Assembly (NCBI GenBank): GCA_016281915.1
Contig: JAEEJO010000053.1
Coordinates: 1-44,435, forward strand
Length of the DNA stretch: 44,435 nucleotides
Direction: 5' to 3'
DNA from: Clostridiales bacterium
GTDB lineage: Bacteria; Bacillota; Clostridia; Oscillospirales; UBA644
Made by a program: the position numbers and the translations under genes
The notes under the pieces: model-generated
What the model was told of the DNA's origin: nothing
The model's input: the letters and a program-made list of their open reading frames with translations, nothing else
Databases searched by the model: none
Part shown: positions 20,783-38,929 of the stretch, piece after piece
Layout: each line of letters starts with the position of its first letter
How positions within the stretch are numbered: the stretch's first letter is position 1

Positions 20783-21859
20783 ATGATACCGGACCTAGAA
20801 CCATATTGGAAAAAGCTCGTTTCAACAGGTCTCCGCTTCCTCCAAGACCAGGGGAATACTGCTGCGGTTGCAGTCATAAAGAACGCCATCCTTAGTGTTG
20901 ACTTTAACAATCACGATAATTGGGACGGCGGTATTGATTATTGGGATCTGGCCTTCCATCTGAAGTATAGAGATTTTACTGCTATCGCTGGTGAGAAAGA
21001 TAAAATCGAAGGCGAAATACTGACAGTTCTTGAACAGTTTCACACAGATGGAAGAGATCGTCTTGCCAACGTTATAATCCAGCCGATGATTGAACAATAC
21101 ATTGATTGGAACGCAATCCTTCCGGCAACAAAAGAAAGTACCATCGCTCTAATACGGGAAGAACAGAAGATGCTTTCTGATGTGGCGACTGGGAAGATAT
21201 CCTTCAAAGAAGATGGCATTGAGGACGCATACCAAGAGAGGCACCTTCAAATTCTCACTATAGCGGATAAGGCAGGATTTGATTACCCTGTGACGGCAAA
21301 CACTCTTGTTGAATGGTGGGGCGAAGTTAGACTGCTTTCGAGCTATGCAGAGAGACGGGAATACATCTCACAGAAGTTTTCGCCTCTGCTAAAAATGCTG
21401 AGAGAATCTGAAGATAATGGCACAGATGTGAGTTTCCAACAAATAGCTACCAGATCTGGAACAGTTCAAAAAGCGGTAGAAGATGCTGAAGTTTTTATTC
21501 GTGAAGGACGCTACGACTCTGCCGTTGATCGTGTTCACACAGCATTCCATGGCTATTTGAGACAGGTACTCACAGATCATCGTGTGACTTACGGAGCAGA
21601 AGATGGACTACCTGCATTGTTTGCGAAGCTTCACTGGTATTATGGGGATTCAATTCAACCAGCAGATGTCGCGGAGCGATTGAAGACGATTCTTCGTAGT
21701 GCAGGTGGTATGATAAATGCGGTGAATGAACTGCGAAATAACAACACGATTGCTCATCCCAACGGACAGTTGATACAGAAGAGGGAAGCGCAGCTGGTAA
21801 TCAGGTTGGTAAATGCTGTAGTTGATTATATCGAGGACGTAGAAAATGGAATCGCGTGA
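20783..21859 (+). CDS. Abortive infection family protein with C-terminal HEPN-like motif
   Basis: 358 residues, predicted soluble and helical. The C-terminal half (EDAEVFIREGRYDSAVDRVHTAFHGYLRQVL, then LKTILRSAGGMINAVNELRNNNTIAHPN) matches the abortive-infection C-terminal (Abi_C) family. R318-N-N-N-T-I-A-H325 is an R-x6-H motif of the HEPN ribonuclease type. Such proteins are thought to kill or stall phage-infected cells by cleaving RNA; this one has not been tested. AAAGGAGG precedes ATG 20783. It lies between the polysaccharide operon and cas9, and a small ORF overlaps its end. The trigger and the role of the N-terminal half are unknown. Confidence 0.85.
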   Translation: MIPDLEPYWKKLVSTGLRFLQDQGNTAAVAVIKNAILSVDFNNHDNWDGGIDYWDLAFHLKYRDFTAIAGEKDKIEGEILTVLEQFHTDGRDRLANVIIQPMIEQYIDWNAILPATKESTIALIREEQKMLSDVATGKISFKEDGIEDAYQERHLQILTIADKAGFDYPVTANTLVEWWGEVRLLSSYAERREYISQKFSPLLKMLRESEDNGTDVSFQQIATRSGTVQKAVEDAEVFIREGRYDSAVDRVHTAFHGYLRQVLTDHRVTYGAEDGLPALFAKLHWYYGDSIQPADVAERLKTILRSAGGMINAVNELRNNNTIAHPNGQLIQKREAQLVIRLVNAVVDYIEDVENGIA

Positions 21860-22064
21860 GCTATGGATCTCATATCACGAAAGATATTGTTATTTAAAGG
21901 GCATTTGTAGTATTCTCGATAAATGCGGTACTTCTATAGAATTAAAAAACATGGTTGAGAAGATTATTGATTACTACACGAAGTTTCAAAATAATCATGT
22001 TGTTCTTTTAGTTTCAACTACTTATATTCATGCTCTATTATGTGTCGATATCCTCTTGTTATAA
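21846..22064 (+). CDS. Small ORF overlapping the abi gene, function unknown
   Basis: 72 residues starting at ATG 21846, overlapping the last 14 bp of the abi gene, with GAGGA about 8 nt upstream. The first half is charged and helical; the last 20 residues are hydrophobic (VVLLVSTTYIHALLCVDILLL with one break) and could be a membrane segment. The stop lies 4 nt before a terminator stem, so the ORF sits where a second operon gene would. I recognise no family. It could be a partner of the Abi protein or a chance frame. Confidence 0.4.
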   Translation: MESRELWISYHERYCYLKGICSILDKCGTSIELKNMVEKIIDYYTKFQNNHVVLLVSTTYIHALLCVDILLL

Positions 22065-22068
22065 AAAA

Positions 22069-22113
22069 TCCTCCCATGATATATCCTTATAGTGTGTCAT
22101 AGGAGGACTTCTT
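22069..22113. terminator. Intrinsic terminator after the abi operon, possibly bidirectional
   Basis: An 11-bp stem with one mismatch (22069-22079 TCCTCCCATGA with 22097-22107 TCATAGGAGGA) is followed by CTTCTTTT on the plus strand. The preceding ATAAAAAA gives a T-run on the minus strand. Confidence 0.7.
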
Positions 22114-22157
22114 TTAATGACCTTTTTATGGACTTGTTATGTTTTCGAACATTTTTT

Positions 22158-22346
22158 TTATTTTATTTGGTTTACCCGCTTGTCAATCCGGTGATCGATA
22201 TTCGTGAAAATATTCCGCGTATTGAATTGAATGAGGACGCTGTAATACGGAATGTCATACTGTTCCATAGCGGCACCATCATTGGGATTTTCCTCATCCA
22301 AATCAGGTGCTTTTTCATGTTCAAATAAGCGGCAGAGTAATTCTCC
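22158..22346 (-). pseudogene. Unidentified minus-strand coding-like remnant without a start codon
   Basis: After an in-frame TAG at 22347-22349 the minus frame stays open for 62 codons to TAA 22158-22160. The peptide (LLCRLFEHEKAP, then YDIPYYSVLIQFNT and IDHRIDKRVNQIK) looks more protein-like than the plus-strand frames, but there is no plausible start and its 5' end lies inside the CRISPR repeat. I do not recognise it. It may be the tail of a gene displaced or cut during decay of the cas region. Confidence 0.25.
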
Positions 22347-22422
22347 CTATAAAATTACACTACTCTCAAACTTTATGGTGTTAGACCTCATTCGGTGTTT
22401 GTTTAGTTCCATATAAATTACA
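22336..22422 (-). CRISPR. Degenerate CRISPR remnant: one type II repeat, one probable spacer and a partial repeat
   Basis: Read on the minus strand, 22371 to about 22343 gives a type II repeat start (GTTTGAGAGTAGTG, then TAATTTTATAGGGAG). It pairs with the tracrRNA anti-repeat at 26919-26949 over 11 + 9 + 6 bp with the Cas9-type GA/GAGT bulge. Its 3' seven bases look eroded. Upstream on the same strand, 22372-22400 is a 29-nt segment of spacer length, preceded by a partial repeat at 22401-22422 (TGTAATTTATATGGAACTAAAC) whose 5' half is not recognisable. The order spacer then repeat is that of a type II crRNA, so one guide could still be made. Confidence 0.65.
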
Positions 22423-22654
22423 GCCTTTTCATCCTCGAATTTGAGCGGATCCATATCCGTTTTCGACCACTACAAAGTCTAAAATTCCGGGAAGAATGGC
22501 GTAAGAAGAACTAAAAATGAAGATAATATCAAAAGCAGTCTGAACAACTGTCTTCAATAAAGCGTTTTTCAAGGCGTATATAATAATTGCTACATTTTCA
22601 AGCTTATCATATAATCCTTCCTGAATCTGCAAGAGATTACAACTGTTATTCTGA
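22423..22654. other. Short non-coding or decayed stretch between the CRISPR remnant and cas9
   Basis: This is where cas1 would be expected in a type II operon. A minus-strand frame 22429-22632 of 67 codons with a TTG start exists, but its product (LYDKLENVAIIIYALKN and so on) shows no Cas1, Cas2 or Csn2 signature. I see nothing else supportable. Confidence 0.4.
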
Positions 22655-25600
22655 TCATAAAAGCTCCAGAAGATTTCCTGAACGCTTTTCCCATAAGCCC
22701 GAAGGGGAGCGATCTATGATACAGGCTGTATTATACTGTTTTTTCCAGTTCTGAAGATTTGAACTGAAGCTGACTGTCGATCCGGCATGGGCAACGCCTT
22801 CGATCAGGGTCAAATCTATACCCGATGAAACCGAGCCGAAAACCTGGATGATTTTCATAAGCGCTTTTGACTGTTCGATGATTCCGAGGGAGATAAACGC
22901 TTCTCTTCCTCTGATAATTGCCTGTACAGGAGAATTAATGCGCTTTGTATATATTCCGTCTGTCAGTTTGTCAAGGAGAAGATCGTAAAGTTCAATATTC
23001 TGTTCAGAAGTTACTTTATCAAAATCCGGGTCATATTGGTAATTCGGGTTGGCGGAGGATTTCACAACAACGGATTCAAGCTTTTTTATGTATTCTTCAT
23101 GCGCATACGAAAGCTTAAGCTGAACAAACGGAGCCATAACAACAGCCTTTCCTCCGTTTCCGGTGCCAGATAACGTAAACTCAAATCCGTCAAGGGAAAT
23201 AACTGTATTAATCTTTACGGAACGCATTCCAAGCGGAAAAGATATATCTGAAGGTATCTTTCGGAATATTTGGAAAATACGTGTCTTGATATATTCGACT
23301 GCATACGTACTGTCCGTAAGAACCTGATCTGCAGACATAAGCTCAATAGGAACAAGCATTACGTTATTCTTTTTTGATTCTACGTATTTCGTCAAAATGA
23401 AGAACGATATCGAAGGTTTGTTGTATCCACCGTATACTGCGGTATTAAGGCCTTTTTTCCTCGGAACAAGACCTTTAGCTTTTTTTACAGGTAGTTGATC
23501 GAAAAATCCTCCGCGCCTGCAAAACGCGTACTTGGAAGTGTGAATGCTGTTCTTAAGTATGGTCTTTCTGACAGTATTAAAGCTTTCGCTGCCGTTCCAG
23601 ACGACTGTGTCACCATTTTTTACTGTTTTGCCTGAGAATACAGGGTTTCCGTATGCGTCGATAATTGGTTCCCGCACCTGAGCGCGTTCACCTGAAGAGC
23701 GTTTAACGATTTCTTCTTTTGTTTTGAATTCGCCGAAAAGTTTCGATAACTTGATATTGTATTGATCGTTGTTCTGCTTGGTTTTAAGGAACCACTGCTT
23801 TGTGAAATGCTCTGTATACACATTGCCGCAGACAATACTTAGATATGCGTCCTTTGCGTGGTGAAGATCATTTACGCTTCTGCATTTAAGCATACCAAAC
23901 TCTTGACGGAAATCAGAAACGAGGTCTGCTTGGACATAGACAATTTTGGTGCCCGGATATTTTTCCTTGAGAATCGCCGCCATAGCTTTTGTTGACTGTC
24001 TCGTTTCAACAAGCTGACGGTTGATAAAGCCCCATTCTTCATCCTCGGAAAAACCTGTTCGTCTTGTGAGTCTGTTATATTTTTCCGGTTCCATCAGTCC
24101 GTGATCTCTTAGATATTTCCAGAACGGCGTCATTTTATTTCTCCATGCAGAAGGAACTGGATATGAATCGCCTTTATCCTTATTATACGTAGAAAGAACA
24201 AGAACTTTATTATTGAGGATGTTGTCGTCTTTTACCTTAGACTGCGGATAGATATGATCTATGTTGTATGTGCCGTCTGTAAGTTTGTTGATATCGATAG
24301 TCTCGCCAGAATACATGCATTTGCCAAGCTGAAGGTAATAAAGGAAAAGGGCTTCACTCTGAAGACGGCTATCCGCAGCGTCTCCCATTTTTTCAAGATT
24401 CTCAGCAAAAGCTCTTGCTGTCTCATCTTTTATCTGTTTATACAGTTCAATAAGGCGGTCTTTTCTCGAGACGGTTCTCTTACCTTTTTTACTTTCATCG
24501 CCGTCTCTTGCCATTTCAACAAATATTTTTTCAGGTGCGGAGCCTAGAGCCTTTACTACGTCGTCAACGACTGCTAGAGTTCTGAAGATGGGCCTTTTTA
24601 CCGTATTGGAAACACACATCTCATCCAGCCTTTCGTCAAGCGTTATCGGATGCTCTGCATAGTAAGACTGAACATAATTATTTATCTGCTCAAGAAACGT
24701 ATATTTGTCGCTGAACAGCTCCGTAATATTAACGTTGCGATTCCATAAAAAATATATAACAGTTCCGACCTCACCCGAATTCTTTTCAGTTCCTTCTAAT
24801 TCGCATAAAAACTCACCGGAAAGTCTGCCGAAATCGCTGAATTTCTGAGAGCAGATGTATTTTCTGTCATCAGAGGACAACTCGGAGTAGTTCTTATCGA
24901 GCCATTTTCTGAAGCGAAGCCTGTCTTCCGTGTAAGTTAAATGCCTGATGATATCCTCAACATTTTCCTCATTCAATACTTTTCTCTGAAGAATGTTCTT
25001 GAATATTATATGAGACGATAAGGATGATTTTATATTAGAATCGACGCCGGATATTTTGTCCTGATCTTCCTTGGTTATAATGTTATTAGCAAGTAAATAT
25101 TCCCTTATTGAGTTCAGAGATACTTTTTTCTTGGCAAGGAATATGTTATTGTATATATCCTGTTTGACCGAAACAGATACAGGAACACCGTTGATTATCA
25201 TGGTGTTGATTTCGTTAAGGACCTCAAACTTTTCATAAAGCAGAGATCTTTTTGGTAGTACGTCTTTGCCGGGAAGGTATGTACAGGAGTTCGTCATCTT
25301 ATTGATAAAGGCTTGCTCGCTTTCATCAAGATCTACCTTTTCGTCAAAATTCCACGGATATATTTTACCTTCTGCCATTCTCCTGATCCAGGAATATGGG
25401 CTTTTGCCGTTCAGCGGACCGACATAATACGGAACGCGAAATCTCATTATCGACAGAAGCTTATCTTTTGCCGTATATCCGTCAGTATCTTTTTGGGAGA
25501 GGAAGGGGAGGTATTCGGAAGCGTTTTCAAGAATTATCTGAAGCTCTTTGTAATAAAGCTGATACGGGATAACTCTGTTATCGACGGTTACCTGCTTTGG

Positions 25601-26872
25601 CATAAACGAGCCGGATTCAATACGTTCGAGCATATCGTCAAACGCCTGCTTCTCCGAGTCATCTGGCGTTATTTCCTCAACGATTCTTTTGATGTATTTA
25701 CCGAAGTCTTCAGCGCTGTTTGTTTTTTTTAACTTTGAAATATCCCCGTGTGCCTGCTTTGACATTCCGCTGTACGCAACGTAATTGTTGTCTTCAATAT
25801 TTTTGAAGACTTTGTAATACGATTGACGAGGAAGATGGTTTCGAATCAGATTCTTAAGGAATTTCAGATCCGCTTTATGCTGTTCATATTCTTTGACCTT
25901 TGAAAAAGAAATATACTTTTCGCCGCTTAGCATGTCACAAAGAACAGACCAGTCGAAAATGGCTTTGAGTCTGATAAGAAGTTCTCCGTCATCTCCGAGA
26001 TCTGAAAGAACTGAAACGAATTTCTCATCATCCATACTAAGTGAAACAGAGGACGGGTCAATCTCTCCATATTCTTCTTTACCGTAAAGCTCTTTAAGTG
26101 ATACTGTACTGCCCGCAAGAAGCTTGATGATAAGTTCAATGCAGAACGGGAACTCAGTCGGGTCCGGAATGCCTTTAATGCGTTTACTGTCAAATGTTAT
26201 TGCCTTTTTAATCTCGTTTGCTTTTGCTGTTTTTGAATGCCTCTTCTTCAATGCATCGGCAAGATTATTTGTATCTTCACACATCCACGGTGCGCGATAG
26301 TTATCGGTAAGACTTTCGAAATATTCTGTAAGTTCATTGTAAACGACCGAAAAATCGGTTACACGGTCTATATTATCGAGTGAAATGTCGCTCAGAAAAT
26401 GTCCCCTGTGTGCTACAAGCCAAGCGCATGCAAGGTAAACAAGTCTGACATCATGAGGTCTTTTTCCTGTAATCAACTCTGCAATGAGATGATGGATGGT
26501 AGGGTAGAGGACGTGATAATCTCTGTCCGTGAAATCTTCGTCGTTAAAAAGGCAGGAAATATCGTTTTTATCCTCTCTTAAAAGCTGACTTTCCTTAATT
26601 CTCTTGTAAAACAGCGCATCTTTTTTCGATATTTCATCAGCGAATATTTCCTGAACAAGGAGCACTCTCTGCTTTCTGCGCTCAAGTCTTCTTCTTGCTG
26701 TTCTGAAGGCTCTGCGCTCCGCCTTTGTGTTTGCGGGATCGAACAGAGAAACGCCCCAGACAGGCTCTCCAGAATGTTTAATCAGATTGTATTCGGGGGT
26801 GGTACCGGTTGCTGCGTAGCCTATGGAATCGGTACCTATGTCAATGCCGAGATAGTACTTTCTGTTTTGCAT
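22655..26872 (-). CDS. cas9: CRISPR-associated endonuclease Cas9 (type II), full length
   Basis: 1405 residues. RuvC-I is YYLGIDIGTDSIGYA with D11; an arginine-rich bridge helix follows (RRAFRTARRRLERRKQR). RuvC-II is KIFVEMARDG with E786, the HNH domain has NIDHIYPQSKVKDDN with H873, and RuvC-III is HHAKDAYLSIV with H1005 and D1008. All residues equivalent to the known nuclease centres are present. The C-terminal PAM-interacting region ends DRSPSGLWEKR, the usual arrangement near the Cas9 end. GGAGG (plus 26881-26885) lies 8 nt before the ATG. A tracrRNA gene diverges from its leader and a repeat remnant lies downstream. cas1, cas2 and csn2 are absent here, so II-A or II-C cannot be assigned. 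Confidence 0.98.
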   Translation of the reverse strand: MQNRKYYLGIDIGTDSIGYAATGTTPEYNLIKHSGEPVWGVSLFDPANTKAERRAFRTARRRLERRKQRVLLVQEIFADEISKKDALFYKRIKESQLLREDKNDISCLFNDEDFTDRDYHVLYPTIHHLIAELITGKRPHDVRLVYLACAWLVAHRGHFLSDISLDNIDRVTDFSVVYNELTEYFESLTDNYRAPWMCEDTNNLADALKKRHSKTAKANEIKKAITFDSKRIKGIPDPTEFPFCIELIIKLLAGSTVSLKELYGKEEYGEIDPSSVSLSMDDEKFVSVLSDLGDDGELLIRLKAIFDWSVLCDMLSGEKYISFSKVKEYEQHKADLKFLKNLIRNHLPRQSYYKVFKNIEDNNYVAYSGMSKQAHGDISKLKKTNSAEDFGKYIKRIVEEITPDDSEKQAFDDMLERIESGSFMPKQVTVDNRVIPYQLYYKELQIILENASEYLPFLSQKDTDGYTAKDKLLSIMRFRVPYYVGPLNGKSPYSWIRRMAEGKIYPWNFDEKVDLDESEQAFINKMTNSCTYLPGKDVLPKRSLLYEKFEVLNEINTMIINGVPVSVSVKQDIYNNIFLAKKKVSLNSIREYLLANNIITKEDQDKISGVDSNIKSSLSSHIIFKNILQRKVLNEENVEDIIRHLTYTEDRLRFRKWLDKNYSELSSDDRKYICSQKFSDFGRLSGEFLCELEGTEKNSGEVGTVIYFLWNRNVNITELFSDKYTFLEQINNYVQSYYAEHPITLDERLDEMCVSNTVKRPIFRTLAVVDDVVKALGSAPEKIFVEMARDGDESKKGKRTVSRKDRLIELYKQIKDETARAFAENLEKMGDAADSRLQSEALFLYYLQLGKCMYSGETIDINKLTDGTYNIDHIYPQSKVKDDNILNNKVLVLSTYNKDKGDSYPVPSAWRNKMTPFWKYLRDHGLMEPEKYNRLTRRTGFSEDEEWGFINRQLVETRQSTKAMAAILKEKYPGTKIVYVQADLVSDFRQEFGMLKCRSVNDLHHAKDAYLSIVCGNVYTEHFTKQWFLKTKQNNDQYNIKLSKLFGEFKTKEEIVKRSSGERAQVREPIIDAYGNPVFSGKTVKNGDTVVWNGSESFNTVRKTILKNSIHTSKYAFCRRGGFFDQLPVKKAKGLVPRKKGLNTAVYGGYNKPSISFFILTKYVESKKNNVMLVPIELMSADQVLTDSTYAVEYIKTRIFQIFRKIPSDISFPLGMRSVKINTVISLDGFEFTLSGTGNGGKAVVMAPFVQLKLSYAHEEYIKKLESVVVKSSANPNYQYDPDFDKVTSEQNIELYDLLLDKLTDGIYTKRINSPVQAIIRGREAFISLGIIEQSKALMKIIQVFGSVSSGIDLTLIEGVAHAGSTVSFSSNLQNWKKQYNTACIIDRSPSGLWEKRSGNLLELL

Positions 26873-26873
26873 A

Positions 26874-26902
26874 TTGACAGCCTCCGATTTTTATGCTATA
26901 AT
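26874..26902 (+). promoter_or_regulatory. Consensus promoter for tracrRNA
   Basis: TTGACA (26874-26879), a 17-nt spacer and TATAAT (26897-26902) form a perfect sigma-70/A type promoter reading right. The -35 lies exactly between the cas9 ribosome site and its start codon on the other strand. Expected start near 26908-26910. Confidence 0.9.
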
Positions 26903-26907
26903 GTACT

Positions 26908-27023
26908 AAAGTTTATAGCTCCCTATAAATTTACACTACGAGTTCAAATAAGAATTCTTCGAAATCGTCGGTTCTTCCGACTGCACAGTGTGTGCGATGA
27001 AAGCCCTGTATGGGGCTTTTTTT
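26908..27023 (+). ncRNA. tracrRNA
   Basis: The transcript starts after the TATAAT at 26897-26902. The anti-repeat (26919-26949) runs CTCCCTATAAA, T, TTACACTAC, a GAGT bulge and TCAAAT, complementary to the repeat at 22343-22371. It is followed by AAGAATTCTT (26950-26959, palindromic), a GTCGG-CCGAC hairpin (26967-26981), a GCACA-TGTGC hairpin (26983-26995) and a terminator hairpin AAAGCCC-GGGCTTT with a T-run (27000-27023). This is the normal order anti-repeat, nexus-like hairpins, terminator of Cas9 tracrRNAs. The 5' end also contains TTTATAG (26912-26918), which can pair with CTATAAA (26923-26929) inside the anti-repeat. Confidence 0.92.
27000..27023 (+). terminator. Terminator of the tracrRNA gene
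   Basis: Seven-base-pair stem AAAGCCC/GGGCTTT around a 6-nt loop, followed by four further T after the stem's own TTT. Confidence 0.9.
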
Positions 27024-27280
27024 CTTTGCTCTTTCTTGAACGCGAACTGGGAACAAAAAGCTTTATAATACTCTGTTGAATATTATACCATACACAATAT
27101 GCAAAAATCAAGACCTTTGAGACAAATTTTTCCTTGGATAAGCTGCAGAGAAAAGTACAGATTTTCTCGAACTAAATATTTGCGCCAGCGCCCTGAAGCT
27201 CGTGTATCATTCCCGTGCACACCTTGAAACCGATTCTGTAATGATAACGGACATAAATCTGCATATGGTCCAAAATTATT
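27024..27280. other. Gap between tracrRNA and the phage lysis module, no gene recognised
   Basis: No promoter, tRNA or attachment repeat is evident. A minus-strand frame in 27083-27295 reads partly protein-like (NDTRASGRWRKYLV) but has no family match known to me. The edge of the phage module probably lies here. Confidence 0.4.
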
Positions 27281-27331: not shown

Positions 27332-27919
27332 TTAAAATTTCAGCAGCATTCTCAACCTCTCCGCAAGAGAGGTTTTCTTTCTTTTTACGTTTTCAACATA
27401 CATAACTTCCGGCACTTTCAGCCAGTACTTCCACCCTGCAGAGGATAGGGGAGTCTTGACTATTCCGTCGCCACGGGATCCGAGCGTACACTCTATTACA
27501 GCTTTGTTTCCGACATAAACACCCACATGTCCAGGTTTCCATAAAACGATTCCGGGGATGTTTGGCATTGTGCCTATCTTTCCTTTTTCTTTGGCGGAAT
27601 CAAACAGTCCTGCTGCGCCTCTGTCAGTTTTCGAAGAATACTTTATCTTCCCGTATATATTGCCGTCAGTCCACAGCGCCCATTTTATCAGCCCTGCGCA
27701 GTCACAGCCTACGGTTGTACCGTCGGTGTATCGTTTCAGAAAAGCGATACGAGCAGGGGAGTATCTGTCCGGATACTGTTTCGCCTTGGATGAAATAAGC
27801 GAGGAAGTAATCGGCTTACCATATGTTCCCCACATATAAAGAGACTTTTTCTTTAAAGCCTGTTCGCAGAAATTTACCAGCATATGATTCGTTATCACCG
27901 TTATTTCACGACCTTCCAT
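27332..27919 (-). CDS. Phage endolysin, NlpC/P60-type peptidase
   Basis: 195 residues. GCDCAGLIKWAL carries the catalytic cysteine C74 (DCxGL/F motif), and KPGHVGVYVGN carries H131 followed by an acidic position near VIEC, as in NlpC/P60 cysteine peptidases that cut stem-peptide bonds of peptidoglycan. No signal peptide is seen, consistent with release through a holin. It is the last gene of the late operon, after two small membrane proteins and before a strong terminator. The ATG at 27919 overlaps the end of the upstream gene; an ATG at 27883 (MLVNFCEQ) is an alternative start. Confidence 0.9.
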   Translation of the reverse strand: MEGREITVITNHMLVNFCEQALKKKSLYMWGTYGKPITSSLISSKAKQYPDRYSPARIAFLKRYTDGTTVGCDCAGLIKWALWTDGNIYGKIKYSSKTDRGAAGLFDSAKEKGKIGTMPNIPGIVLWKPGHVGVYVGNKAVIECTLGSRGDGIVKTPLSSAGWKYWLKVPEVMYVENVKRKKTSLAERLRMLLKF

Positions 27920-28176
27920 TCTTTAACGTCTACTGCTACCTTATCTATAAAACTATTTCCGTGAAGCTTTTTGTACGCCTCATACAGCATACAGAAATTT
28001 TCAAGCTCATACTGAGGTATCTCTTTTGTTTCCGAGTGCTTGTAATATATCTTTAGCATTTCCGAACGCAAAAGACACCTCTGCCCGTCAAACACTTTTC
28101 CTATGGCTACTATCCCTGCTATCACTGTTGCCAGAAGCGCTGCCGTCTGACCAAGGACAGAAATTAACTCACTCAT
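27901..28176 (-). CDS. Small membrane protein of the lysis cassette (holin-like)
   Basis: 91 residues. One N-terminal hydrophobic segment (ALLATVIAGIVAIG) is followed by a charged helical C-terminal part. Gene position between another small membrane protein and the endolysin, with a 4-bp overlap (ATGA) to the gene upstream, points to a holin or a holin accessory protein. The sequence itself does not match a holin family I can name. Confidence 0.65.
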   Translation of the reverse strand: MSELISVLGQTAALLATVIAGIVAIGKVFDGQRCLLRSEMLKIYYKHSETKEIPQYELENFCMLYEAYKKLHGNSFIDKVAVDVKEWKVVK

Positions 28177-28436
28177 TCAGTACCGTCTCCTTTTTCATAT
28201 TCCTTACCGATCCTCGCACCGTGTCCGTATTTATTCATTCCGTATTTATCTGAAGCAGAAGCTACGCAGTAAGAAGCAAACGAGCCTAGTATTGTGTAGA
28301 CGAGAGCGGTATCTACAGAGCTGTCGATTATAATGCCGAAAAGCTCCGCGATGCGTCCGATTGCGATAAATAAAACGGAGAATAAAACAATAAATGTGAG
28401 CGCGATTTTCTTGTATTCGATATGTCGTTTTTTCAT
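28173..28436 (-). CDS. Phage holin-like membrane protein
   Basis: 87 residues from ATG 28436 (MKKRHIEYKK). Two hydrophobic segments (IALTFIVLFSVLFIAIG and VDTALVYTILGSFASYCVASA) flank a short polar turn, and a charged tail follows, the layout of class II holins. A longer frame starting TTG 28490 is possible, but the GGGAAAG just upstream and the charged MKK start favour 28436. It overlaps the next small membrane gene and precedes the lysin, so membrane permeabilisation for lysis is the likely role. Confidence 0.75.
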   Translation of the reverse strand: MKKRHIEYKKIALTFIVLFSVLFIAIGRIAELFGIIIDSSVDTALVYTILGSFASYCVASASDKYGMNKYGHGARIGKEYEKGDGTE

Positions 28437-28515
28437 TTCTTTCCCTAATTTATGACTATCTCCGTTCTCTAAATCCCTTCCGTATAACAAACAAGGGAAT
28501 GCGGCAGACCATCAT

Positions 28516-31005
28516 TTAAACTTCCTCCCAAGAATATACAGGTGTTCCGCCTAAAACTGTTGCCTTTAATCGATATGAACCGTCTTGAGAAGGGGCTTTC
28601 GGTATTTGAAACAGTTCAAGTGACATCTGTGTGCCAGCCTGATTGATTAGATATGAGCCGTCTGCAGACGCAAGTGATGGCAAATGCTGCACCTTGTCGA
28701 GTAGATTCGGCAGATAAACCGTTTTATGAGGAACTGGGACAGGTATATCACGATTATCGATGAATTCCTCTGTTCCCAGGGCGTTTACTATTTGAACCTG
28801 CTGATAAGGTTCTGCCTGTTCGGTGGTCGGGGTGTCAAGTTCATATAAGAGATAGACGCCATTCATAGCCGCTTTGAAGTCTGCCGCTGACGAATAACTG
28901 CTGTCTTTAACGTAAACATAGTGGTTGTTTGAAGCATTTGAAACCGCTATTGATTTATCGTTTGCCGTTCCGTCGTATATGCTTGTAAAGGGAGCGGACA
29001 AATACTTTGCACAGATTGCTCCACTTGTATTGCTAATAACTGAATCAACTACTTGTGAACCGCTAAAATAAGTGCGTTCAGCATTATATGTCCAATTCAA
29101 GGTACCCAGATCAATAACACCGTATCGTCTTGTCACATCACCGTTCGGTGCATACACATCTCCGTCGGCATAAAGATTATTCTTGCCGTCAAGCTTTGCT
29201 ACCCCACGGAGTTCAAGATTGCCGTCTGTCGGATAAATATGTTCAACATAAGGCTCATATTCACCGTTGCGACTATCGTTCGAGATGTTAAAAGAAGCGT
29301 TCTGCATTTTCATTGACGATGAAGTATTTCCGTCCGAGAACACCATTTGGATCCAGTAATAATCATCAAAGACAAAGCCCATTCTTTTATTTGTGTTGTT
29401 TGAACCTTGTCGCCAATAGTTTCGACCCGTTACAAAATTCATCGTTCCACCGATAATTTCAAGTCTAAAAGGCTGTCCAGTTGACACTATCCTGCCGTTC
29501 ATATCCCATATCTTAATGCCTGTTCGCCAACTTGTAGCTGTGCTGATTCCGTCAAAACAGTAGTAATAATGCGTATTCGGGATTACTCTTACAGCTTTTG
29601 TCTTATCAAGCGTAGCTGTAGTTGTAGCATATGCAGGCGAAACAGGGAGAAGATTGAACCCAAAAGTCTTATGTCCGCTCGTCTTAACGCTCATCAGCGT
29701 AGGTGTAGTATAGGGTATATCAAGCGGAATATTGTGTGAGCGTAACCAAGCAACACCTGCACCGCTCTGTGACTGTTCGAGTGAATATACATAGTCAGCG
29801 ATAGAAGCAGAACCGAATAGCTGTGTGAGGTCAACGATTCTAAACTGTGCCGTTGTATTTATTGTGTCTCCACTACTTACGCCTATTAGGGAAATAACTA
29901 TATCAGCAAGTGTACCATCAACTGTATTGATTATTCTTTCTAGGGGATAGGAGCTATTTAGATACCCACCATCGCCCTGTAACCTTACTCGGAACATAGA
30001 GTTATTCGTTGCAATATAGACTTTGTGTCCTACCGCAATCGCAAGGTTTGTATCACCAAGTCGTATCTGTGGCGTTGTAGATGCTGTATTCATCGTTCCC
30101 GCAAAGCTCCAAATATTGTCGGTTGCCGAAATGGTTATTCCTGTTATTGTTGAGCTTGTTTTTGTTGCCTGCGATAGCTGATTCACCACCAAACTCAATC
30201 CGTCAATCTCATTGACCTTTGCCCTATCGCCTACATCAGTTGTTCCTGCTGTCGCTCGGTAAGTATAGGGTGAGCTATTTTCATACCCAGTATTAGCAAG
30301 TAACTGCTGTGCAGAGCCTACCGTCATTCCGTCATATGACCCGTCAATGTTTGCCTTATAGTTAAGCACTACATCACCAGTCATTCCGTCAACAGATGTG
30401 ACAGAGCCGTTCGTGACCGTAAAGCTCGAAGTAGCACCGTCCGTCATTGTTATGGTGTATGTGTCAACATTGCCAACAGTTGAGGTTTTTGCAACAGTTG
30501 CAATACCGGCACCCTCTGCACCGTTAGTAACATTAAATGTCGAGGTCGTTTCGTTTGTATAGTAAATCGTATACGTATCAACAAGACCCGCGGTTGCAGT
30601 CTTATCAATATGGTCGATACCAACGCCATCGAGTGCGCCGTTTTCGATTGCGTCCATTATCTGATTGTAGATGTCTTCGGGAGGCTGAACGTGCTGTCCT
30701 TCTTCGGACAATACTGACTTTCTGCACTCAAACACAGCGACAGCCGTTGCGTGTAAATCTCCCGCATAAATACCGATGCGGATTGAGTTGACATTGTAAA
30801 GCCTCGGGAGCGGGCATTCATCGCCTGTGAAGAGTGTGTCCTCATAGTTGTTGTCAGGATAAATAACCCTCATCGTCTTGGCGTTATATTCGTCCCACTC
30901 GGCATCAAGGTCGAACTTAACTGTGTAGTCCGTGTTATCGCAGACAATAAATTGACCGTCACCTGTCGCTATCTTGTCTACTACTGATACATTCAAGGTA
31001 GGCAT
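28516..31005 (-). CDS. Large phage tail/baseplate protein, probable receptor-binding protein
   Basis: 829 residues. The N-terminal 110 residues (MPTLNVSVVDKIATGDGQF, AEWDEYNAKTMRVIYPD) form a domain often found at the start of Clostridia phage host-contact proteins. Two related stretches of about 32 residues follow, each with VDTYTI and S/T-F-x-VTNG, then a long region rich in Asn, Thr and Ser with jelly-roll-like strands. The gene lies between other tail genes and the lysis cassette, the usual place for receptor-binding proteins. AGGAGG upstream supports ATG 31005. The host receptor is probably a surface glycan, but this is inference. Confidence 0.8.
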   Translation of the reverse strand: MPTLNVSVVDKIATGDGQFIVCDNTDYTVKFDLDAEWDEYNAKTMRVIYPDNNYEDTLFTGDECPLPRLYNVNSIRIGIYAGDLHATAVAVFECRKSVLSEEGQHVQPPEDIYNQIMDAIENGALDGVGIDHIDKTATAGLVDTYTIYYTNETTSTFNVTNGAEGAGIATVAKTSTVGNVDTYTITMTDGATSSFTVTNGSVTSVDGMTGDVVLNYKANIDGSYDGMTVGSAQQLLANTGYENSSPYTYRATAGTTDVGDRAKVNEIDGLSLVVNQLSQATKTSSTITGITISATDNIWSFAGTMNTASTTPQIRLGDTNLAIAVGHKVYIATNNSMFRVRLQGDGGYLNSSYPLERIINTVDGTLADIVISLIGVSSGDTINTTAQFRIVDLTQLFGSASIADYVYSLEQSQSGAGVAWLRSHNIPLDIPYTTPTLMSVKTSGHKTFGFNLLPVSPAYATTTATLDKTKAVRVIPNTHYYYCFDGISTATSWRTGIKIWDMNGRIVSTGQPFRLEIIGGTMNFVTGRNYWRQGSNNTNKRMGFVFDDYYWIQMVFSDGNTSSSMKMQNASFNISNDSRNGEYEPYVEHIYPTDGNLELRGVAKLDGKNNLYADGDVYAPNGDVTRRYGVIDLGTLNWTYNAERTYFSGSQVVDSVISNTSGAICAKYLSAPFTSIYDGTANDKSIAVSNASNNHYVYVKDSSYSSAADFKAAMNGVYLLYELDTPTTEQAEPYQQVQIVNALGTEEFIDNRDIPVPVPHKTVYLPNLLDKVQHLPSLASADGSYLINQAGTQMSLELFQIPKAPSQDGSYRLKATVLGGTPVYSWEEV

Positions 31006-31017
31006 TCTTTATTCCTC

Positions 31018-31635
31018 CTATCCGCGGTGAACTACGACCGTGTAGTAATATGTGCTGCCGTTTCCAAAGCCGCCGGGCGATTGTGTGTTGAAATATACCC
31101 TCGAAGAACTGGTAGAACAACTCGTTGAAACTGTCTTCGGACCCGCGGGTGTAACGCATACGCCTGTTCCCGAGCCGCTCAATCCCGCGGCAAAGTATAT
31201 CTCCCCCGAGCCAGTCGGCCCGGATAAGGTCCAACCCTGAACACTGTCACCACTGTTAAACTGATAGTTGATGATGCTTTCTGAGGTTCCGCCTGTGGCG
31301 GTGAATTGTCCGCTGATCGTTATGTCATCGCCTTCGGAATATGTTCCGGTAACACCGAATATCTGCACACCCGCTTTGATATTGCTTGCTTTCAAGTCAG
31401 AATCGCCTTTGATCGTCTGCTTGCCTGTAAGAAACTGATTCGCCGCGATTGACTGATCCGCTGTTCCCGGCGTGTATGTTGCCGCTGTCTTTACCGGAAC
31501 GGATCCTGTTACGAGTGTGCCGGTAGAGTCATAAAACTTGCGTCCGGTCTTCACATCCGAAGCCGAAGCTGTGACCTTTGTCAGGTCGATACCGTCAGCA
31601 GAGCCGGTGACCGCATTTGTTCTTCCCGTTGCCAT
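31018..31635 (-). CDS. Phage tail fibre/minor structural protein
   Basis: 205 residues. The segment AATYTPGTADQSIAANQFLTG then KQTIKGDSDLKASNIKAGV and IFGVTGTY is a well known repeated motif of Bacillota prophage tail proteins; the rest is Ser/Thr/Gly-rich, suggesting a beta-structured tip. The start codon shares its A with the stop of the preceding gene (TAATG), so translation is coupled. Role: baseplate-attached fibre or its adaptor, by position and motif. Confidence 0.78.
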   Translation of the reverse strand: MATGRTNAVTGSADGIDLTKVTASASDVKTGRKFYDSTGTLVTGSVPVKTAATYTPGTADQSIAANQFLTGKQTIKGDSDLKASNIKAGVQIFGVTGTYSEGDDITISGQFTATGGTSESIINYQFNSGDSVQGWTLSGPTGSGEIYFAAGLSGSGTGVCVTPAGPKTVSTSCSTSSSRVYFNTQSPGGFGNGSTYYYTVVVHRG

Positions 31636-32345
31636 TACAGATGCACCTCGATTCTGTCAATAGTCGCGGTGTTGTTGGTCTTGGAATACACTGTAATGAT
31701 GTCTTCTCCTGTGTCGAATGTCGGTGCTAGATAACCTGTTGCAGCGGATACAATGTTGAATATTACGTCACCCGTCATAGCCGCCGTGCATCCGGGAACG
31801 GGGACGACCTTTTTGTATACATATCCTGCCGTGTAATATGCGCCTGAGCTGTTCGCAACCCAACCCGACACCGTTGTCGGCGTGTTGATGACGATACTGT
31901 CAGAGTGTATCAGACACTTTTCAATGCCACGATAAATCGTCCATCCTTCGTTGTAATACAGATAGCAGAAAGCGTATTCGTAGGTGCCTGTATCAGCACC
32001 GTTGACATCGTTCTGAACAAGAGCGGGAAAGTTGCCTATTGCATCGGAGTTTTCCGTTACAAAAACCGCCTGATTGAATGTTTCTGTCGAAGCCGTCTGC
32101 GTTGTATCAATAACGACTTTAACTCGGATATATCCCGAACCGCTCAATGCGATAGATTCATTCGAGTTTATCTTCATCAAGCGTCCGGCACAAATAAAGT
32201 ATCCCGCGGCTATGTTCAACGTGTTGTCGGCGATTGACAGTGTGCATCCGGCGATAACACCATCGTCAAACGCCTTTTCAAACAATCTGCCGTGGTCTTT
32301 CGACGTTACGACCTGATTGTCAAAAACAATGCCCTTTATTGCCAT
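31635..32345 (-). CDS. Phage baseplate/minor structural protein
   Basis: 236 residues, predicted beta-rich. MAIKGIVFDNQVVTSKDHGRLF and LSIADNTLNIAAGYFICAGR resemble a family of Siphoviridae structural proteins encoded directly after the baseplate hub, with unknown exact role. Both ends overlap neighbouring genes by one base (TAATG), typical of a tightly coupled late operon. No enzymatic motif is seen. Confidence 0.72.
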   Translation of the reverse strand: MAIKGIVFDNQVVTSKDHGRLFEKAFDDGVIAGCTLSIADNTLNIAAGYFICAGRLMKINSNESIALSGSGYIRVKVVIDTTQTASTETFNQAVFVTENSDAIGNFPALVQNDVNGADTGTYEYAFCYLYYNEGWTIYRGIEKCLIHSDSIVINTPTTVSGWVANSSGAYYTAGYVYKKVVPVPGCTAAMTGDVIFNIVSAATGYLAPTFDTGEDIITVYSKTNNTATIDRIEVHL

Positions 32346-33247
32346 TATTGCATCCTCCTGATCTTTTCGGTTAATGTTGTAGCAAGCTCTCCAGAGCGGT
32401 ATTTATAGCGCGTGTCGGATGAACTGCTGCCGATATATGTTATTTGCGATTCGTATACGCTTTCGTTGATTCTGAATCTGACGGTATCATTTAAGCCCCA
32501 TTTGTCAAATGACATCCACTCTATTTTGTGAGAGGCGGTATTCTTTGCGAAGACTTCTTCCGCCGTTCCCGAATCGGTTACTATCCATTCACCGACCACC
32601 CGCTGATTGTCCGCAGGGCGTATTGTGGTGATGCTGCCACCCTTCGTGAGATAGTAAGATGTTGATCCGATCGTGACCTTGCTCACCGTCTCTCTTGAAA
32701 AGGTTTGCGAGAGCAACTGCTCAGATCCGTCAAATGTCACGGTATGACTCGGACGATTGGCTGTCTGAATAGTAAAATTCAGCTCGAAACCGTTACCGTC
32801 AATAGTAACCTCGACCACATTTGCAAACGCCCTTACAAGCTCTTTGAATGTATGAGTGCCGCTGACAGTGCAAGCCGTTGAGTCTGTATTCGTCACCGTG
32901 ATGTATGAATACCGATAGAGCGGATCTGATTGCATCTTGTAGTCGTTGGTGAGGATGTTCGCGAGGATCCCGCCGTAGGTATTGCCTGATAGCGTCACAG
33001 GACGGTCAAAAAAATCAATTATCGAATTAAGCGAGAATGTTGTCAGATTGCTTTCGGGAGCTACGGATTGAATCAGATATATGTTTCCGTCCATCAGAAA
33101 GAAATATCCTTCGAAGCCTGACTGTGAGCCGTATGCCGTAGCCGTTCCCGCTTCGTCTGTGGTCGCCGCAATCGGCAGCTCCCAAGACACGATGTCAAGA
33201 GCTTTAACGGTGGTAAATGTCTGCGGATCCTTTATATATCCTTTCAT
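32345..33247 (-). CDS. Phage baseplate hub/tail protein (Gp37-like, Tal N-terminal type)
   Basis: 300 residues. The start MKGYIKDPQTFTTVKALDIVSWELP and the middle LLSQTFSRETVSKVTIG fit the Gp37-like (ReqiPepy6-type) tail proteins found after Dit in Bacillota siphoviruses. These form the baseplate hub that closes the tail tube. There is no added peptidase domain, so this is the short form. It lies between the distal tail gene and the minor structural genes, with nearly no intergenic space. Confidence 0.78.
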   Translation of the reverse strand: MKGYIKDPQTFTTVKALDIVSWELPIAATTDEAGTATAYGSQSGFEGYFFLMDGNIYLIQSVAPESNLTTFSLNSIIDFFDRPVTLSGNTYGGILANILTNDYKMQSDPLYRYSYITVTNTDSTACTVSGTHTFKELVRAFANVVEVTIDGNGFELNFTIQTANRPSHTVTFDGSEQLLSQTFSRETVSKVTIGSTSYYLTKGGSITTIRPADNQRVVGEWIVTDSGTAEEVFAKNTASHKIEWMSFDKWGLNDTVRFRINESVYESQITYIGSSSSDTRYKYRSGELATTLTEKIRRMQ

Positions 33248-33250
33248 CGT

Positions 33251-34102
33251 TTACACCGTCCTGAAATAGTCATACATAAGCAACTCAACCGATACGTTCA
33301 TATCATCGTCCGAGGAAAGAACAAGATCACATTTCTCCGTATTCGGAACACGAAGCCACGGATCATACGACAAATCGACATATGCCAGGGCATCGTTGTT
33401 GTTGATCGTGACCGAAGTTTCCCCGTAACGCGTGATGACCGTCAGCGTCTGACTTGCAGATGTTGTCGTGTTGAGCTTCATTTTGCCATAGACTTTGCCC
33501 GTGTTCTGCCCGGTGAGAGTGAGTTCGGGGTTTGCAAGGTAGCCCTTAACGGCGAACCTGATTGCCGAGGGAATGTGTCCCTGCCCCTGAATCTCACAGC
33601 TCATTCCGGGAAGTGAAGATGCAGCGTAACGAAGCTCGCTGTCGTAGCGGTAAGTATATCTCATCGCATTGCCTACTTCATCCATTGACAGCGTGGTCGC
33701 CTTTGTTTTATAGAACGGAGTCAGGCACTGAAACGATACCGGACACCTTAGCCACCGTGTGCTTTCAAGCTGTGTCTTTTGCAGGAAGTCAAGCGACACT
33801 CTGCGTCTGTATTCGTCCTTGTCGTTAGGAGAATAAACGAGATACAGCTCTGTCGCCTTGTTTAACCACATTGTGAATGTCCGGTAAAGTTCGTAAGCGT
33901 TGTGAGTGAAAACCAAATCCCCGGTAATTGCTGACTGCGGTTCTACATCTCCCGATATATCTTTGAAGAACCCTTTGTGAATATCCGCAGAAGTGGGAGA
34001 CATCGTTTGTCCGAGTCCCGCGGGATTGTCGAGGAACATTCCGCTGTCTCCGTTGAGCGAATAGCGTTCGCCTTTTTCGTTTTCTATGTAAAACTTCCTC
34101 AT
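33251..34102 (-). CDS. Phage distal tail protein (Dit-like)
   Basis: 283 residues. MRKFYIENEKGERYSLNGD is a typical Dit/phage tail family start, followed by GLGQTMSPTSADIHKGFF and the central LVFTHNAYELYRTF with a galectin-like second half (GNAMRYTYRYDSELRYA). It follows the tape measure gene, overlapping it by 4 bp (ATGA), and precedes the hub, the conserved order of siphovirus baseplates. It should form the hexameric ring at the tail tip. Confidence 0.83.
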   Translation of the reverse strand: MRKFYIENEKGERYSLNGDSGMFLDNPAGLGQTMSPTSADIHKGFFKDISGDVEPQSAITGDLVFTHNAYELYRTFTMWLNKATELYLVYSPNDKDEYRRRVSLDFLQKTQLESTRWLRCPVSFQCLTPFYKTKATTLSMDEVGNAMRYTYRYDSELRYAASSLPGMSCEIQGQGHIPSAIRFAVKGYLANPELTLTGQNTGKVYGKMKLNTTTSASQTLTVITRYGETSVTINNNDALAYVDLSYDPWLRVPNTEKCDLVLSSDDDMNVSVELLMYDYFRTV

Positions 34103-36276
34103 ACTGTCGCTCCCATCTTTGCGTTAAATCTTTGGAAGAGATAGTCAACCGTGCTGTTGTTGAGTTCCTGCGGATAGATGTTGATGACGCTGCTGCCCTT
34201 TGCAAACTTTCCGTTCTTCGTGTCAGACAGTGCAACGCTGCCGCTGATCGTCATTGCCGAAGATATATCCTCTGCAATTCCTGTCACATCGTCCAAAACG
34301 TGCTTTGATTCTTTGTCGATGCCCTTTTCCATACCGAGCATAAGGTTTTTGCCTATGCCGGCAAAGACGGTCGAGGGAGAGTGAATGCCGAAGAATCCGC
34401 AGATACCGTCAACAATGCCGCCAAAGAAGCCGCTGATCTGATCCCAAAGCCATTTGCCCGCGTCCGAGATGCCCTGCCAAAGCCCTTCTATTAATTCCAA
34501 ACCCGCATCGGCGAGCATGCTGAGAGAGTCCGGCGATGTCAGGGCCTCGAATATTCCAATAACTATATCGGGCAGTTTTTCCAAAAGCACTAAAATGACT
34601 TCCGGTATTGCTTTTATCAGACCGCCCAGAAGCTGGATGCCGGCAGCAATGATCATTGGCATCGATTCGATTAGGAAATCGACTATTCCGCTTATGATCT
34701 CAGGCAGTTGAGCGATAAGATCCGGAAGAGCGGCAAGCAGACCGTTTCCAAGACCAACGATCAGCTGAAGCCCCGCATGCAGGATCTCGGGAAGATTATC
34801 TATAAGGGAAGTACAGATAGTAAGAATCGCTCCGACCGCTGCGGGTATGAGTTCCGGCAACGCCTCTGTTATCCCGGTTACAAGAGACTCCACGATCTGT
34901 ATTGCCGAGTTAATGATCTCCGGCAATGAGTCTATGAGCTTGTTTACAATAGTCATAACCGCCTCAAACGCGACGGGAATAAGCTCCGGTAGGTGTGCAA
35001 GCAGCATATCGACAAGGGAGTTGAAAAGCTCGATAACGACATCCATAAGGCTCGGAAACAGTTCTATCAGAGCCGTAAGTATCGTGGATATCATAGGCGG
35101 CAGAAGCTCCACCACCTGGGGCAGTATCCCTGCGATAGTCTCTATAGTTGTCTGAACGCCGTTTTTCAGTGTATTTACGGCATCGTCATTCCCCGCAACA
35201 AGACCCGAGATCCCATCCATGATCATTGTTATTCCCGGAAGAAGCTCGGAAACGAAACTGTTTTTAAGCCCGGAAACGGTATCCTGAAGCCTTGTCAGAC
35301 TGTCGTTAAACGTCGCGCCTGCAGATACCGCTTCATCGGACATGACCATACCGTAGTCATGAGCCTCTTGTTTCATCGCGGCAGTCTCTTCGGCAGACAT
35401 ATTAAGCACAGCCGCCATTTCCGTAGCGGATTTACCGAGAAGATCAGTAGCCGCAGTTGTTCTCGTCGCACCCGATTCCATGCCCTGAAGCGCGGTGATG
35501 ACAGTCTGAAGCTGCTCTGTCTGTGACTTTCCCGCCAAGTCGTCAAGCGAAAGACCTACGGCTTCAAGCTTTGCCGCTGCGGACTCCGAACCGTTGCCTG
35601 CATCGACAATTATGCCCGAAAGCTCTTTCATTCCCGTCTGAAGACCCGATACGTCAGCTCCGGACATTTTGAAAACATAATCCCATTCCTGAAACGCTTC
35701 TGCGGAGATACCTATCTTTTGCGACATTTTATCTATGTTGTCAGCGGTAGAAGAAACTTCATTTGCCATATCGAATATCTTCTTGCCGGCAGTAAGAGCA
35801 GCGGTGCCTACGGCAGCCATAGCAGCGCCCATAACTTTTCCTGCGGTTGCAAGACCGGACCATGCCTTTTCCAGATCGACCGTATGCTTTTTATTATTTT
35901 TAAGTTCCTCTGTGTACTCTTTTGTCTCTTTAGCGTTTTTCTGTTCCTGCGTCTGAAGATCGACAAGCGCGGCTTTCGCTTCGTTCAGCTTTGCCTGATG
36001 ATCGTGCAACTGTACGGAGTTTTCGCCGTATTCATAGCGTACCTTCGCAAGCTGCGTGGAAAGAGAGACGACTTTCTCCTCCTGATTCTTGATCATAGAG
36101 GTGAGAATGCCTGCCTGGTCAGAGAGATATTTCTGCTTGTCTCCCGCATTATCAAACTCCGCTTTCGCTAGCTTCATTTCGGAGTTAAGATCCTTGTATA
36201 CTGCATTGCATTCCTTTATTGCTTCTCTGAACTCTTTTTCTCCGTCGACTTTCAGCTTAACGCCAACATCGGCCAT
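34099..36276 (-). CDS. Phage tail tape measure protein
   Basis: 725 residues. A coiled-coil N-terminal region (about 1-130; LNSEMKLAKAEFDNAGDKQ, then VSLSTQLAKVRYEYGE) precedes a hydrophobic segment near 145-165 and a TMP domain (MSQKIGISAEAFQEWDYVFK, ALQGMESGATRTTAATDLLGKS, split by loops). Residues about 390-560 contain repeated hydrophobic units with LPELIP or LPEII spaced by roughly 30-45 residues. TMP sets tail length and is ejected with DNA. Its position between the G/GT chaperones and Dit is diagnostic. Confidence 0.93.
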   Translation of the reverse strand: MADVGVKLKVDGEKEFREAIKECNAVYKDLNSEMKLAKAEFDNAGDKQKYLSDQAGILTSMIKNQEEKVVSLSTQLAKVRYEYGENSVQLHDHQAKLNEAKAALVDLQTQEQKNAKETKEYTEELKNNKKHTVDLEKAWSGLATAGKVMGAAMAAVGTAALTAGKKIFDMANEVSSTADNIDKMSQKIGISAEAFQEWDYVFKMSGADVSGLQTGMKELSGIIVDAGNGSESAAAKLEAVGLSLDDLAGKSQTEQLQTVITALQGMESGATRTTAATDLLGKSATEMAAVLNMSAEETAAMKQEAHDYGMVMSDEAVSAGATFNDSLTRLQDTVSGLKNSFVSELLPGITMIMDGISGLVAGNDDAVNTLKNGVQTTIETIAGILPQVVELLPPMISTILTALIELFPSLMDVVIELFNSLVDMLLAHLPELIPVAFEAVMTIVNKLIDSLPEIINSAIQIVESLVTGITEALPELIPAAVGAILTICTSLIDNLPEILHAGLQLIVGLGNGLLAALPDLIAQLPEIISGIVDFLIESMPMIIAAGIQLLGGLIKAIPEVILVLLEKLPDIVIGIFEALTSPDSLSMLADAGLELIEGLWQGISDAGKWLWDQISGFFGGIVDGICGFFGIHSPSTVFAGIGKNLMLGMEKGIDKESKHVLDDVTGIAEDISSAMTISGSVALSDTKNGKFAKGSSVINIYPQELNNSTVDYLFQRFNAKMGATV

Positions 36277-36288
36277 ACTCTCTCACCT

Positions 36289-36483
36289 CTAGTCCATAAT
36301 ATCATCGATAAATGTCTCTGATTCCGGTTTAGCCAAACCGTTAAACTGCCTGTATATCTCCCACTGATCAAGGAAATGACCTACGGGCATAACCATTACC
36401 TCGTCATATGAACGGCAAAGAAGCGTAACGCCGATGAATTCAAACCTTGAAAACATCTCTTTGGGCGTCACGCTTCTTCCGCG
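36289..36483 (-). CDS. Tail assembly chaperone T extension, reached by -1 frameshift
   Basis: The -1 frame from 36483 reads RGRSVTPKEMFSRFEFIG and continues to the stop at 36289, 64 residues. Alone it could start only at GTG 36471, with no good ribosome site. It is therefore best read as the C-terminal extension of the G protein, giving a G-T fusion of about 185 residues, as in lambda and many siphoviruses. The fusion and the shorter G protein guard the tape measure protein during tail tube assembly. The tape measure gene follows after 12 nt. Confidence 0.82.
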   Translation of the reverse strand, partial: RGRSVTPKEMFSRFEFIGVTLLCRSYDEVMVMPVGHFLDQWEIYRQFNGLAKPESETFIDDIMD

Positions 36484-36845
36484 TTTTTTGAGTCTGTCTC
36501 TTCGCTATGTATGTATCTTTCCGCGCCTTTGTTCATAGCTGTAAATACTGCATCCCGGAAAAAAACGAAGTCTGACGGTGCGCAGAGCGCTTCGATCATC
36601 TCCTGTGTAATGAACGGGTCTTTTTTCGAGTACCGGTAATTGCAGTACATTATTCCCGCGTTGATAAGCGTAGTCAAAAGCCAGAGGACCGATGCGAGCT
36701 GCTCGGAGTACGATGCGTTCTGCATATCTTCTCCTACCTTTTCAAGACCTCCGAACTTCTCCGCTATCTTTTTTGTAGCGTATATATTCAGCATCATCGG
36801 ATATTCTTTTCCGGATATCGTAATTGCTGTAAGTCTGTCGTCCAT
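36468..36845 (-). CDS. Phage tail assembly chaperone G-like protein
   Basis: 125 residues (MDDRLTAITISGKEYPMMLNIYAT at the start, broken here), matching the small tail assembly chaperones found between the major tail protein and tape measure genes of Bacillota siphoviruses. KKIAEKFGGLEKVGEDM and a WLLTTLINAGI helix fit the usual all-helical fold. A slippery heptamer lies eight codons before the end, counting the stop, so part of the product is extended into the T frame. Cellular role: keeps the tape measure protein soluble until the tube polymerises around it. Confidence 0.82.
   Translation of the reverse strand: MDDRLTAITISGKEYPMMLNIYATKKIAEKFGGLEKVGEDMQNASYSEQLASVLWLLTTLINAGIMYCNYRYSKKDPFITQEMIEALCAPSDFVFFRDAVFTAMNKGAERYIHSEETDSKNAEEA
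36483..36489 (-). promoter_or_regulatory. Programmed -1 ribosomal frameshift slippery site A_AAA_AAC
   Basis: On the minus strand A AAA AAC is in exact X_XXY_YYZ phase with the upstream G gene (36489 is a third codon position). Slipping by -1 enters the downstream frame ending at 36289 before the G stop at 36468-36470. Confidence 0.85.
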
Positions 36846-36910
36846 ACAGTTCTCCTTTTATGTCGATTCACAGAGTCCTGTTGTCAACCGCGGACCCCAC
36901 ATGTAAATTT

Positions 36911-38911: not shown

Positions 38912-38929
38912 TCCGCCGCGCCTCCTTTG

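Follow-up and report, generated by a model that had tools for sequence, protein, structure and literature searches.

How does a full-length Cas9 with its own tracrRNA gene come to be accompanied by a single spacer and by no complete adaptation gene? This question is raised by the CRISPR locus on contig C68 (44435 bases, analysed as a whole and hereafter called the window) of a 2.18 Mb draft genome (78 contigs, 95.75% complete). Our answer, which we hold with good though not full confidence, is that a locus descended from type II-A most likely lost its adaptation genes in place, and that whatever its intact Cas9 and tracrRNA can still do, if anything, would depend on one fixed guide. To the left of the CRISPR locus lie a polysaccharide gene cluster and an AbiJ-like gene; the latter (20783–21859) encodes an Abi_C-domain protein with an AbiJ-like match and has the polysaccharide cluster on one side and the CRISPR locus on the other.

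The cas9 gene (22655..26872, minus strand) is a single open frame encoding a type II-A-like protein of 1405 aa with a natural C-terminus and stop. The protein matches NCBIfam cas_Csn1, and its Pfam domains are REC, bridge helix, RuvC, HNH and the PAM-interacting domain. A sequence-only reading of the window had described cas9 as full length with D11, E786, H873, H1005 and D1008, and this description held: the catalytic residues are intact, and an alignment of 124 Cas9 proteins, the one studied here among them, shows 100% conservation of all five (P0005, shorter than 1300 aa, was left out). The nearest Cas9 proteins are 55–59% identical to it, and a cas9 match was found in 0 of 9 other genomes of the genus and 1 of 19 others of the family, several of these genomes being incomplete. 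A 34-residue insertion (residues 1048–1081) is common only to this protein, P0002, P0003 and P0004 among the 124. A GGAGG ribosome-binding site, read from the sequence, stands 8 nt ahead of the cas9 ATG (26881..26885, minus strand), and a scan for promoter-like sites gave a candidate cas9 promoter (27082..27111, minus strand; 10/12), in a region with no overall excess of such sites (12 versus 13.0 in shuffles).

The tracrRNA gene is divergent from cas9. According to the same kind of scan, its promoter (26874..26902, plus strand) has TTGACA and TATAAT hexamers at a spacing of 17 (12/12) with a TG before the second hexamer (extended -10), and the predicted tracrRNA (26908..27027, plus strand, ends deduced) contains an anti-repeat at 26919–26949 and a terminator-like site at 26999–27020. 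The position and the core of the gene are common to the relatives; the promoter is found at the same place in two of them (L024 and L002), with a near-match in a third (L003). The perfect promoter, the terminator-like site and the position and core shared with relatives bear out the earlier description of this tracrRNA gene as complete.

The first repeat is found 284 bases past the cas9 stop, and everything that remains of the array lies on the minus strand: a terminal repeat with a divergent 3' end (22336..22371), the only spacer (22372..22400, 29–30 nt, with a predicted 20-nt guide at 22372–22391), and a partial upstream repeat (22401..22422, the 3' part). The partial repeat is plausible but weak (an equally good match is found in 0.4% of 2219 window segments), and with that qualification the single repeat plus partial copy about 280 bp downstream of cas9, as previously noted, stands. 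A second array elsewhere in the genome was also looked for, and the 27-base repeat core was found once, with no second copy at up to 3 mismatches. Paired with the window's own anti-repeat, the terminal repeat reaches -34.5 kcal/mol, and its pairing with each of five foreign anti-repeats is weaker. The corresponding values in intact systems are -34.6 (L024), -34.4 (L002), -34.1 (L025), -40.5 (L006) and -52.1 kcal/mol (L003), the last two being stronger than in the window.

Using tblastn with the relatives' proteins (E up to 1e-4), no cas1, cas2 or csn2 was found in the window, in agreement with what had been read beside cas9, except that the first ~19 codons of cas1 persist at 22658–22602 on the minus strand. 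This remnant (22602..22658; MIRITVVISCRFRKDY..., about 19 codons, with a stop at codon 23) overlaps the cas9 stop and was recognised by an anchored comparison with cas1 starts, which in the relatives lie from 3 bases before to 13 bases after the end of the cas9 stop, mostly overlapping it. Compared with seven cas1 starts, it has a mean of 22.0 of 45 bases identical, a value reached by 0 of 20000 shuffles and by 0 of 1612 other ATG 48-mers of the window; in an earlier anchored test on nine cas1 rows (including two duplicates), 1 of 5000 shuffles came as high, and at the protein level 0 of 1612 did. Without anchoring, nhmmer with a cas1 profile aligned 13–57 to 13–57, in register, at a weak E of 0.18; hmmsearch with a cas1 protein profile gave an E of 0.28 for the remnant, and no NCBIfam match was obtained for it. 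The similarity to cas1 ends after ~19 codons, and 4 of 8 residues invariant in six relatives are changed.

This ~19-codon cas1 start at the cas9 stop, changed at those invariant residues, makes a once-complete type II-A locus most likely. As far as the sequence allows us to judge, the ancestor was most likely an ordinary cas9-cas1-cas2-csn2-array locus, which would have lost the adaptation genes, the leader and all but the last spacer. The DNA between the first ~19 cas1 codons and the array end is gone or no longer recognisable; the stretch where relatives have the rest of cas1, cas2, csn2 and the leader (22423..22601, minus strand) received no support from tblastn, blastn or profile searches. 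Candidate remnants in the 284-base gap were rejected for csn2 (730 of 1000 shuffled peptides score as well), for cas2 (603 of 1000 shuffled peptides) and for a downstream piece of cas1 (81 of 1000 shuffles), and when the gap was aligned locally and unanchored, as DNA, with the operons of five relatives, the scores did not rise above those of shuffles (best score 28, with L006; shuffle mean 22, maximum 30). Elsewhere in the draft assembly, which was searched as well, there is no match to the Cas1 family (the same search was positive in 9 of 14 control genomes). With the cas1 remnant in place, no Cas1 family match and no second array, the earlier proposal that spacer acquisition was lost and one guide fixed is supported.

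The locus is derived from type II-A and is not a complete member of it. It has a Cas9 of the II-A sort (by cas_Csn1 and Pfam domains) and a tracrRNA, and it lacks three defining features: csn2 (none in the window), cas1 with cas2 (a cas1 stub, no Cas1 in the genome and no cas2 in the window), and an array with a leader (one spacer, one full and one partial repeat, and no leader recognised).

To place this loss among related systems, 11 loci were compared, namely the window and 10 relatives with readable downstream DNA, chosen by Cas9 similarity and not by adaptation state (L221, with cas9 cut by the contig start, and L006, with cas9 split in two frames, are among the 11; L005, whose contig ends in cas9, and L222 are not). 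Eight of the 11 loci have full-length cas1, cas2 and csn2 and 7–29 repeats, at a cas9-to-array distance of 1898–2007 bases; the three shortened loci have distances of 284 (the window), 404 (L004) and 1064 bases (L218). csn2 or a piece of it is present in all 10 relatives with readable context, a set that does not include the five nearest proteins, P0001–P0005. Outside the set, L222 (Cas9 28%) has cas1 and cas2 and no csn2 match. Like the Clostridia type II-A cas9-cas1-cas2-csn2 loci L024 (in G011; 52% in the best segment), L002, L003 and L025, the window has the Cas9 architecture, a divergent tracrRNA, 36-nt repeats beginning GTTTGAGAGTAGTG and an array downstream of cas9 in the same direction; unlike them, with their full cas1, cas2 and csn2 and 9–29 repeats, it has a cas1 stub and one spacer. 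L006 decays in the opposite way (7752–11895), with cas9 split into two frames and cas1, cas2, csn2 and the array whole.

Two of the 10 relatives, L004 and L218, have lost most of cas1 and cas2 in place, as seen at the locus, and kept cas9, the tracrRNA/anti-repeat and the array. L004 (Oscillospiraceae MAG, JAILFE010000281.1) encodes an in-frame fusion of Cas1 (1–48) with Csn2 (about 168–221, the last ~54 csn2 codons), followed after about 95 bases by four repeats, the last of them truncated at the contig end, and thus by at least 3 spacers. In L218 (genome G031), cas1 is reduced to 69 codons by in-frame internal loss and cas2 is cut to 35 codons (the last few possibly not original), while csn2 is whole and there are 12 repeats and 11 spacers; we note that the shortened cas1 (6842–7148) retains its start, its end and the overlap with cas2. 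Both loci resemble the window in having a full-length Cas9 with catalytic residues and a retained anti-repeat (repeat/anti-repeat pairing -44.3 kcal/mol in L004 and -43.8 kcal/mol in L218) beside cas1 and cas2 lost or shortened in place, and differ from it in their number of spacers, the window having one.

Whether the remaining parts could still act is a separate matter. In type II systems a crRNA joins the end of a spacer to the first part of the repeat behind it; on paper, the last spacer with its terminal repeat is therefore enough. Between cas9 and the array no promoter-like site facing the spacer was found (only weak 9/12 sites inside cas9), and the minus strand from cas9 to the repeat showed no terminator-like site. 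As the array promoter is gone and no terminator-like site intervenes, we propose that the spacer and repeat would be transcribed by read-through from cas9; the transcript is predicted to pair with the tracrRNA, host RNase III would trim the paired RNA, and Cas9 would cut DNA matching the 20-nt guide. The outcome would then be a single-target defence left over from the full system, or a relic with an effector still undecayed. Given that no promoter-like site faces the spacer and that the leader is gone, the guide may be silent.

No target of the guide was found either. The 29-nt spacer was found only in the window, and the 20-nt guide has no other match in its own genome at up to 3 mismatches. 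In phages, the best protospacer candidate had an E of only 4 (Enterococcus phages, 71% coverage); there was none in plasmids, none in ten genomes of the genus, and no exact 20-nt match in IMG/VR, where exact matches were searched. A lone 17-nt match in L223 was rejected as a protospacer, being indistinguishable from chance.

With no array promoter and no target found, a dead relic is nearly as likely as one-guide use. Such a relic would have the same history and no function left, the loss being recent, no crRNA being made and the locus drifting to extinction; we regard this as quite possible, if somewhat short of probable. It fits the lost leader and array promoter, the divergent 3' end of the terminal repeat and the lack of a target, and also the surroundings, which hold remnants such as an IS-end-like piece (22004–22137, our own reading of the sequence) and the 3' end of a lipoprotein gene (22199–22275). 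Against it, of the anti-repeats compared, the window's own is still the best partner of the repeat, and Cas9 has no excess of changes at invariant positions over six relatives. The protein differs at 21 of 247 columns invariant in these six (L006, with its split cas9, was left out), compared with 6–29 differences when each relative was left out in turn; Cas9 at such positions is, by this sequence comparison, no more altered than in intact relatives. Neither outcome that the sequence-only reading had named as refuting its proposal was seen: no other array or cas1 turned up, and Cas9 showed no surplus of changes. The Cas1 start has changed at 4 of 7 invariant residues (the Met not counted) versus 21 of 247 in Cas9 (Fisher p 0.002). 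A second comparison took the 262 columns in which at least 95% of the 124 Cas9 proteins agree: the window has 6 departures (rank 16 of 124; mean 3.8), and its near sisters P0001, P0002 and P0004 have 7, 11 and 9, respectively. The state of Cas9 and the pairing of the repeat with its own anti-repeat fit either continued use or recent loss, and the loss of the adaptation genes may simply be recent.

On its right, the CRISPR locus adjoins a block of phage late genes (27332–44214, all on the minus strand), which runs from an NlpC/P60 protein (at the 27332 end) to terL (at the 44214 end) and includes terL, portal, Clp-like protease, capsid, tail tube, tape measure, Dit, a holin-like pair and NlpC/P60; related viral contigs share the part from terL to tape measure. 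That this phage carried Cas9 and the mini-array as cargo against rival phages is improbable in our view. The late genes do stand directly beside the CRISPR locus, and the same spot in three inspected related viral contigs is taken by apparent large serine recombinases (read from the sequence). The cas1 remnant, however, points to descent from an ordinary II-A operon, and no Cas9 match was obtained in two IMG/VR scans or in 30 viral contigs (29 of 80 portal relatives and one endolysin relative), these contigs being fragments searched without a positive control. The same late module is present in the species G006, which has no cas9 match, where it is mostly deleted and followed by 2.4 kb of other DNA; no integrase was seen among the scanned proteins of the block in the window, and a host-type lipoprotein gene starts at 44349, at the right end. 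Since no Cas9 match was obtained in these fragments of related viruses, the G006 module is flanked by other DNA and a host gene lies at 44349, the phage genes appear to be a neighbour and not a carrier, and they do not look like the vehicle of Cas9.

Some further features of these surroundings were observed. In G006 (L207, 1881–3553), the phage block has collapsed so that the start of terL is joined to the NlpC end; a toxin-antitoxin-like pair (our reading) lies near the terL start, and over one 277-base part the block matches the window at 98.6% identity despite the different species. Past the collapsed block (L207, 4980–5130) there are three copies of the repeat GGGTTGAGACGAT, perhaps a remnant of another CRISPR array. 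Phage-like holin genes at the same lipoprotein 3' end in G006 first suggested 22199–22275 as a prophage attachment site (attR), an idea that was ruled out: in G005 the lipoprotein gene next to these holins is intact and in G006 it carries an internal deletion, so 22199–22275 is only a gene remnant. A lipoprotein family (L027, 146–1573, and the window's own genome; solute-binding-like by our reading) gives upwards of 50 matches in 7 of the genus's 10 genomes.

Two virus-borne arrangements resemble the locus in part. Phage-encoded II-C2 Cas9, as far as the available text of its descriptions goes (PMC12669027, PMC11656645), is likewise a Cas9 with tracrRNA outside an ordinary adaptive locus; it has an inactive RuvC, whereas the Cas9 of the window keeps the RuvC residues D11, E786, H1005 and D1008. 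Viral mini-arrays or solitary repeats (Racr), in the portions available of PMC11656645, are similar to the window in its one-spacer array beside phage genes; in contrast to them, the array here adjoins its own cas9, and the genome has no other copy of the repeat. It is unlikely that this CRISPR locus lies in a virus.

We also consider it improbable that the assembler skipped cas1 to csn2 and collapsed the array: arrays often break assemblies and this draft genome is in 78 contigs, but the cas1 start is changed at invariant residues and leads into unrelated DNA, a pattern that clean skipping would not create, and no cas1 is found anywhere in the assembly. Also improbable is that Cas9 is retained to control gene expression, in the manner of scaRNA in Francisella or tracr-L in Streptococcus pyogenes; a regulatory role had been raised by the sequence-only reading. 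An intact Cas9 and tracrRNA without adaptation genes and a strong tracrRNA promoter would suit such a role, but it gained no positive evidence: with up to 3 mismatches allowed, the crRNA guide matches nowhere else in its genome, and its last 10, 11 or 12 bases occur in the window only at the spacer. Taken as a whole, the sequence-only reading is supported as to the loss of acquisition and the fixation on one guide, and has no positive evidence as to the regulatory role.

We return to the loss of the adaptation genes in place. According to the available part of a survey of cas loci (PMC5294841), many type I and III loci lack cas1 and cas2 and none do in type II; its definition of a locus, at least 3 cas genes, would miss a lone cas9. 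In the accessible text of the open-licence literature searched, we found no account of II-A loci losing cas1/cas2 in place.

For the organism, the stored guide is likely no longer updatable, and it may or may not still be used. A wider reading, which we put forward as a doubtful one, is that frozen Cas9 immunity is a recurring and selected end state: in II-A loci of Clostridia, cas1 and cas2 would be removed in place time and again, frequently in frame, with Cas9, tracrRNA and a fixed memory still working, and the window would be the extreme case, with one permanent guide. The interesting part is the recurrence of in-place loss, in L004, L218 and the window. If it is widespread, natural Cas9 systems would allow the cost of learning to be separated from the benefit of remembering, and the loci concerned would be ready-made material for measuring that cost.
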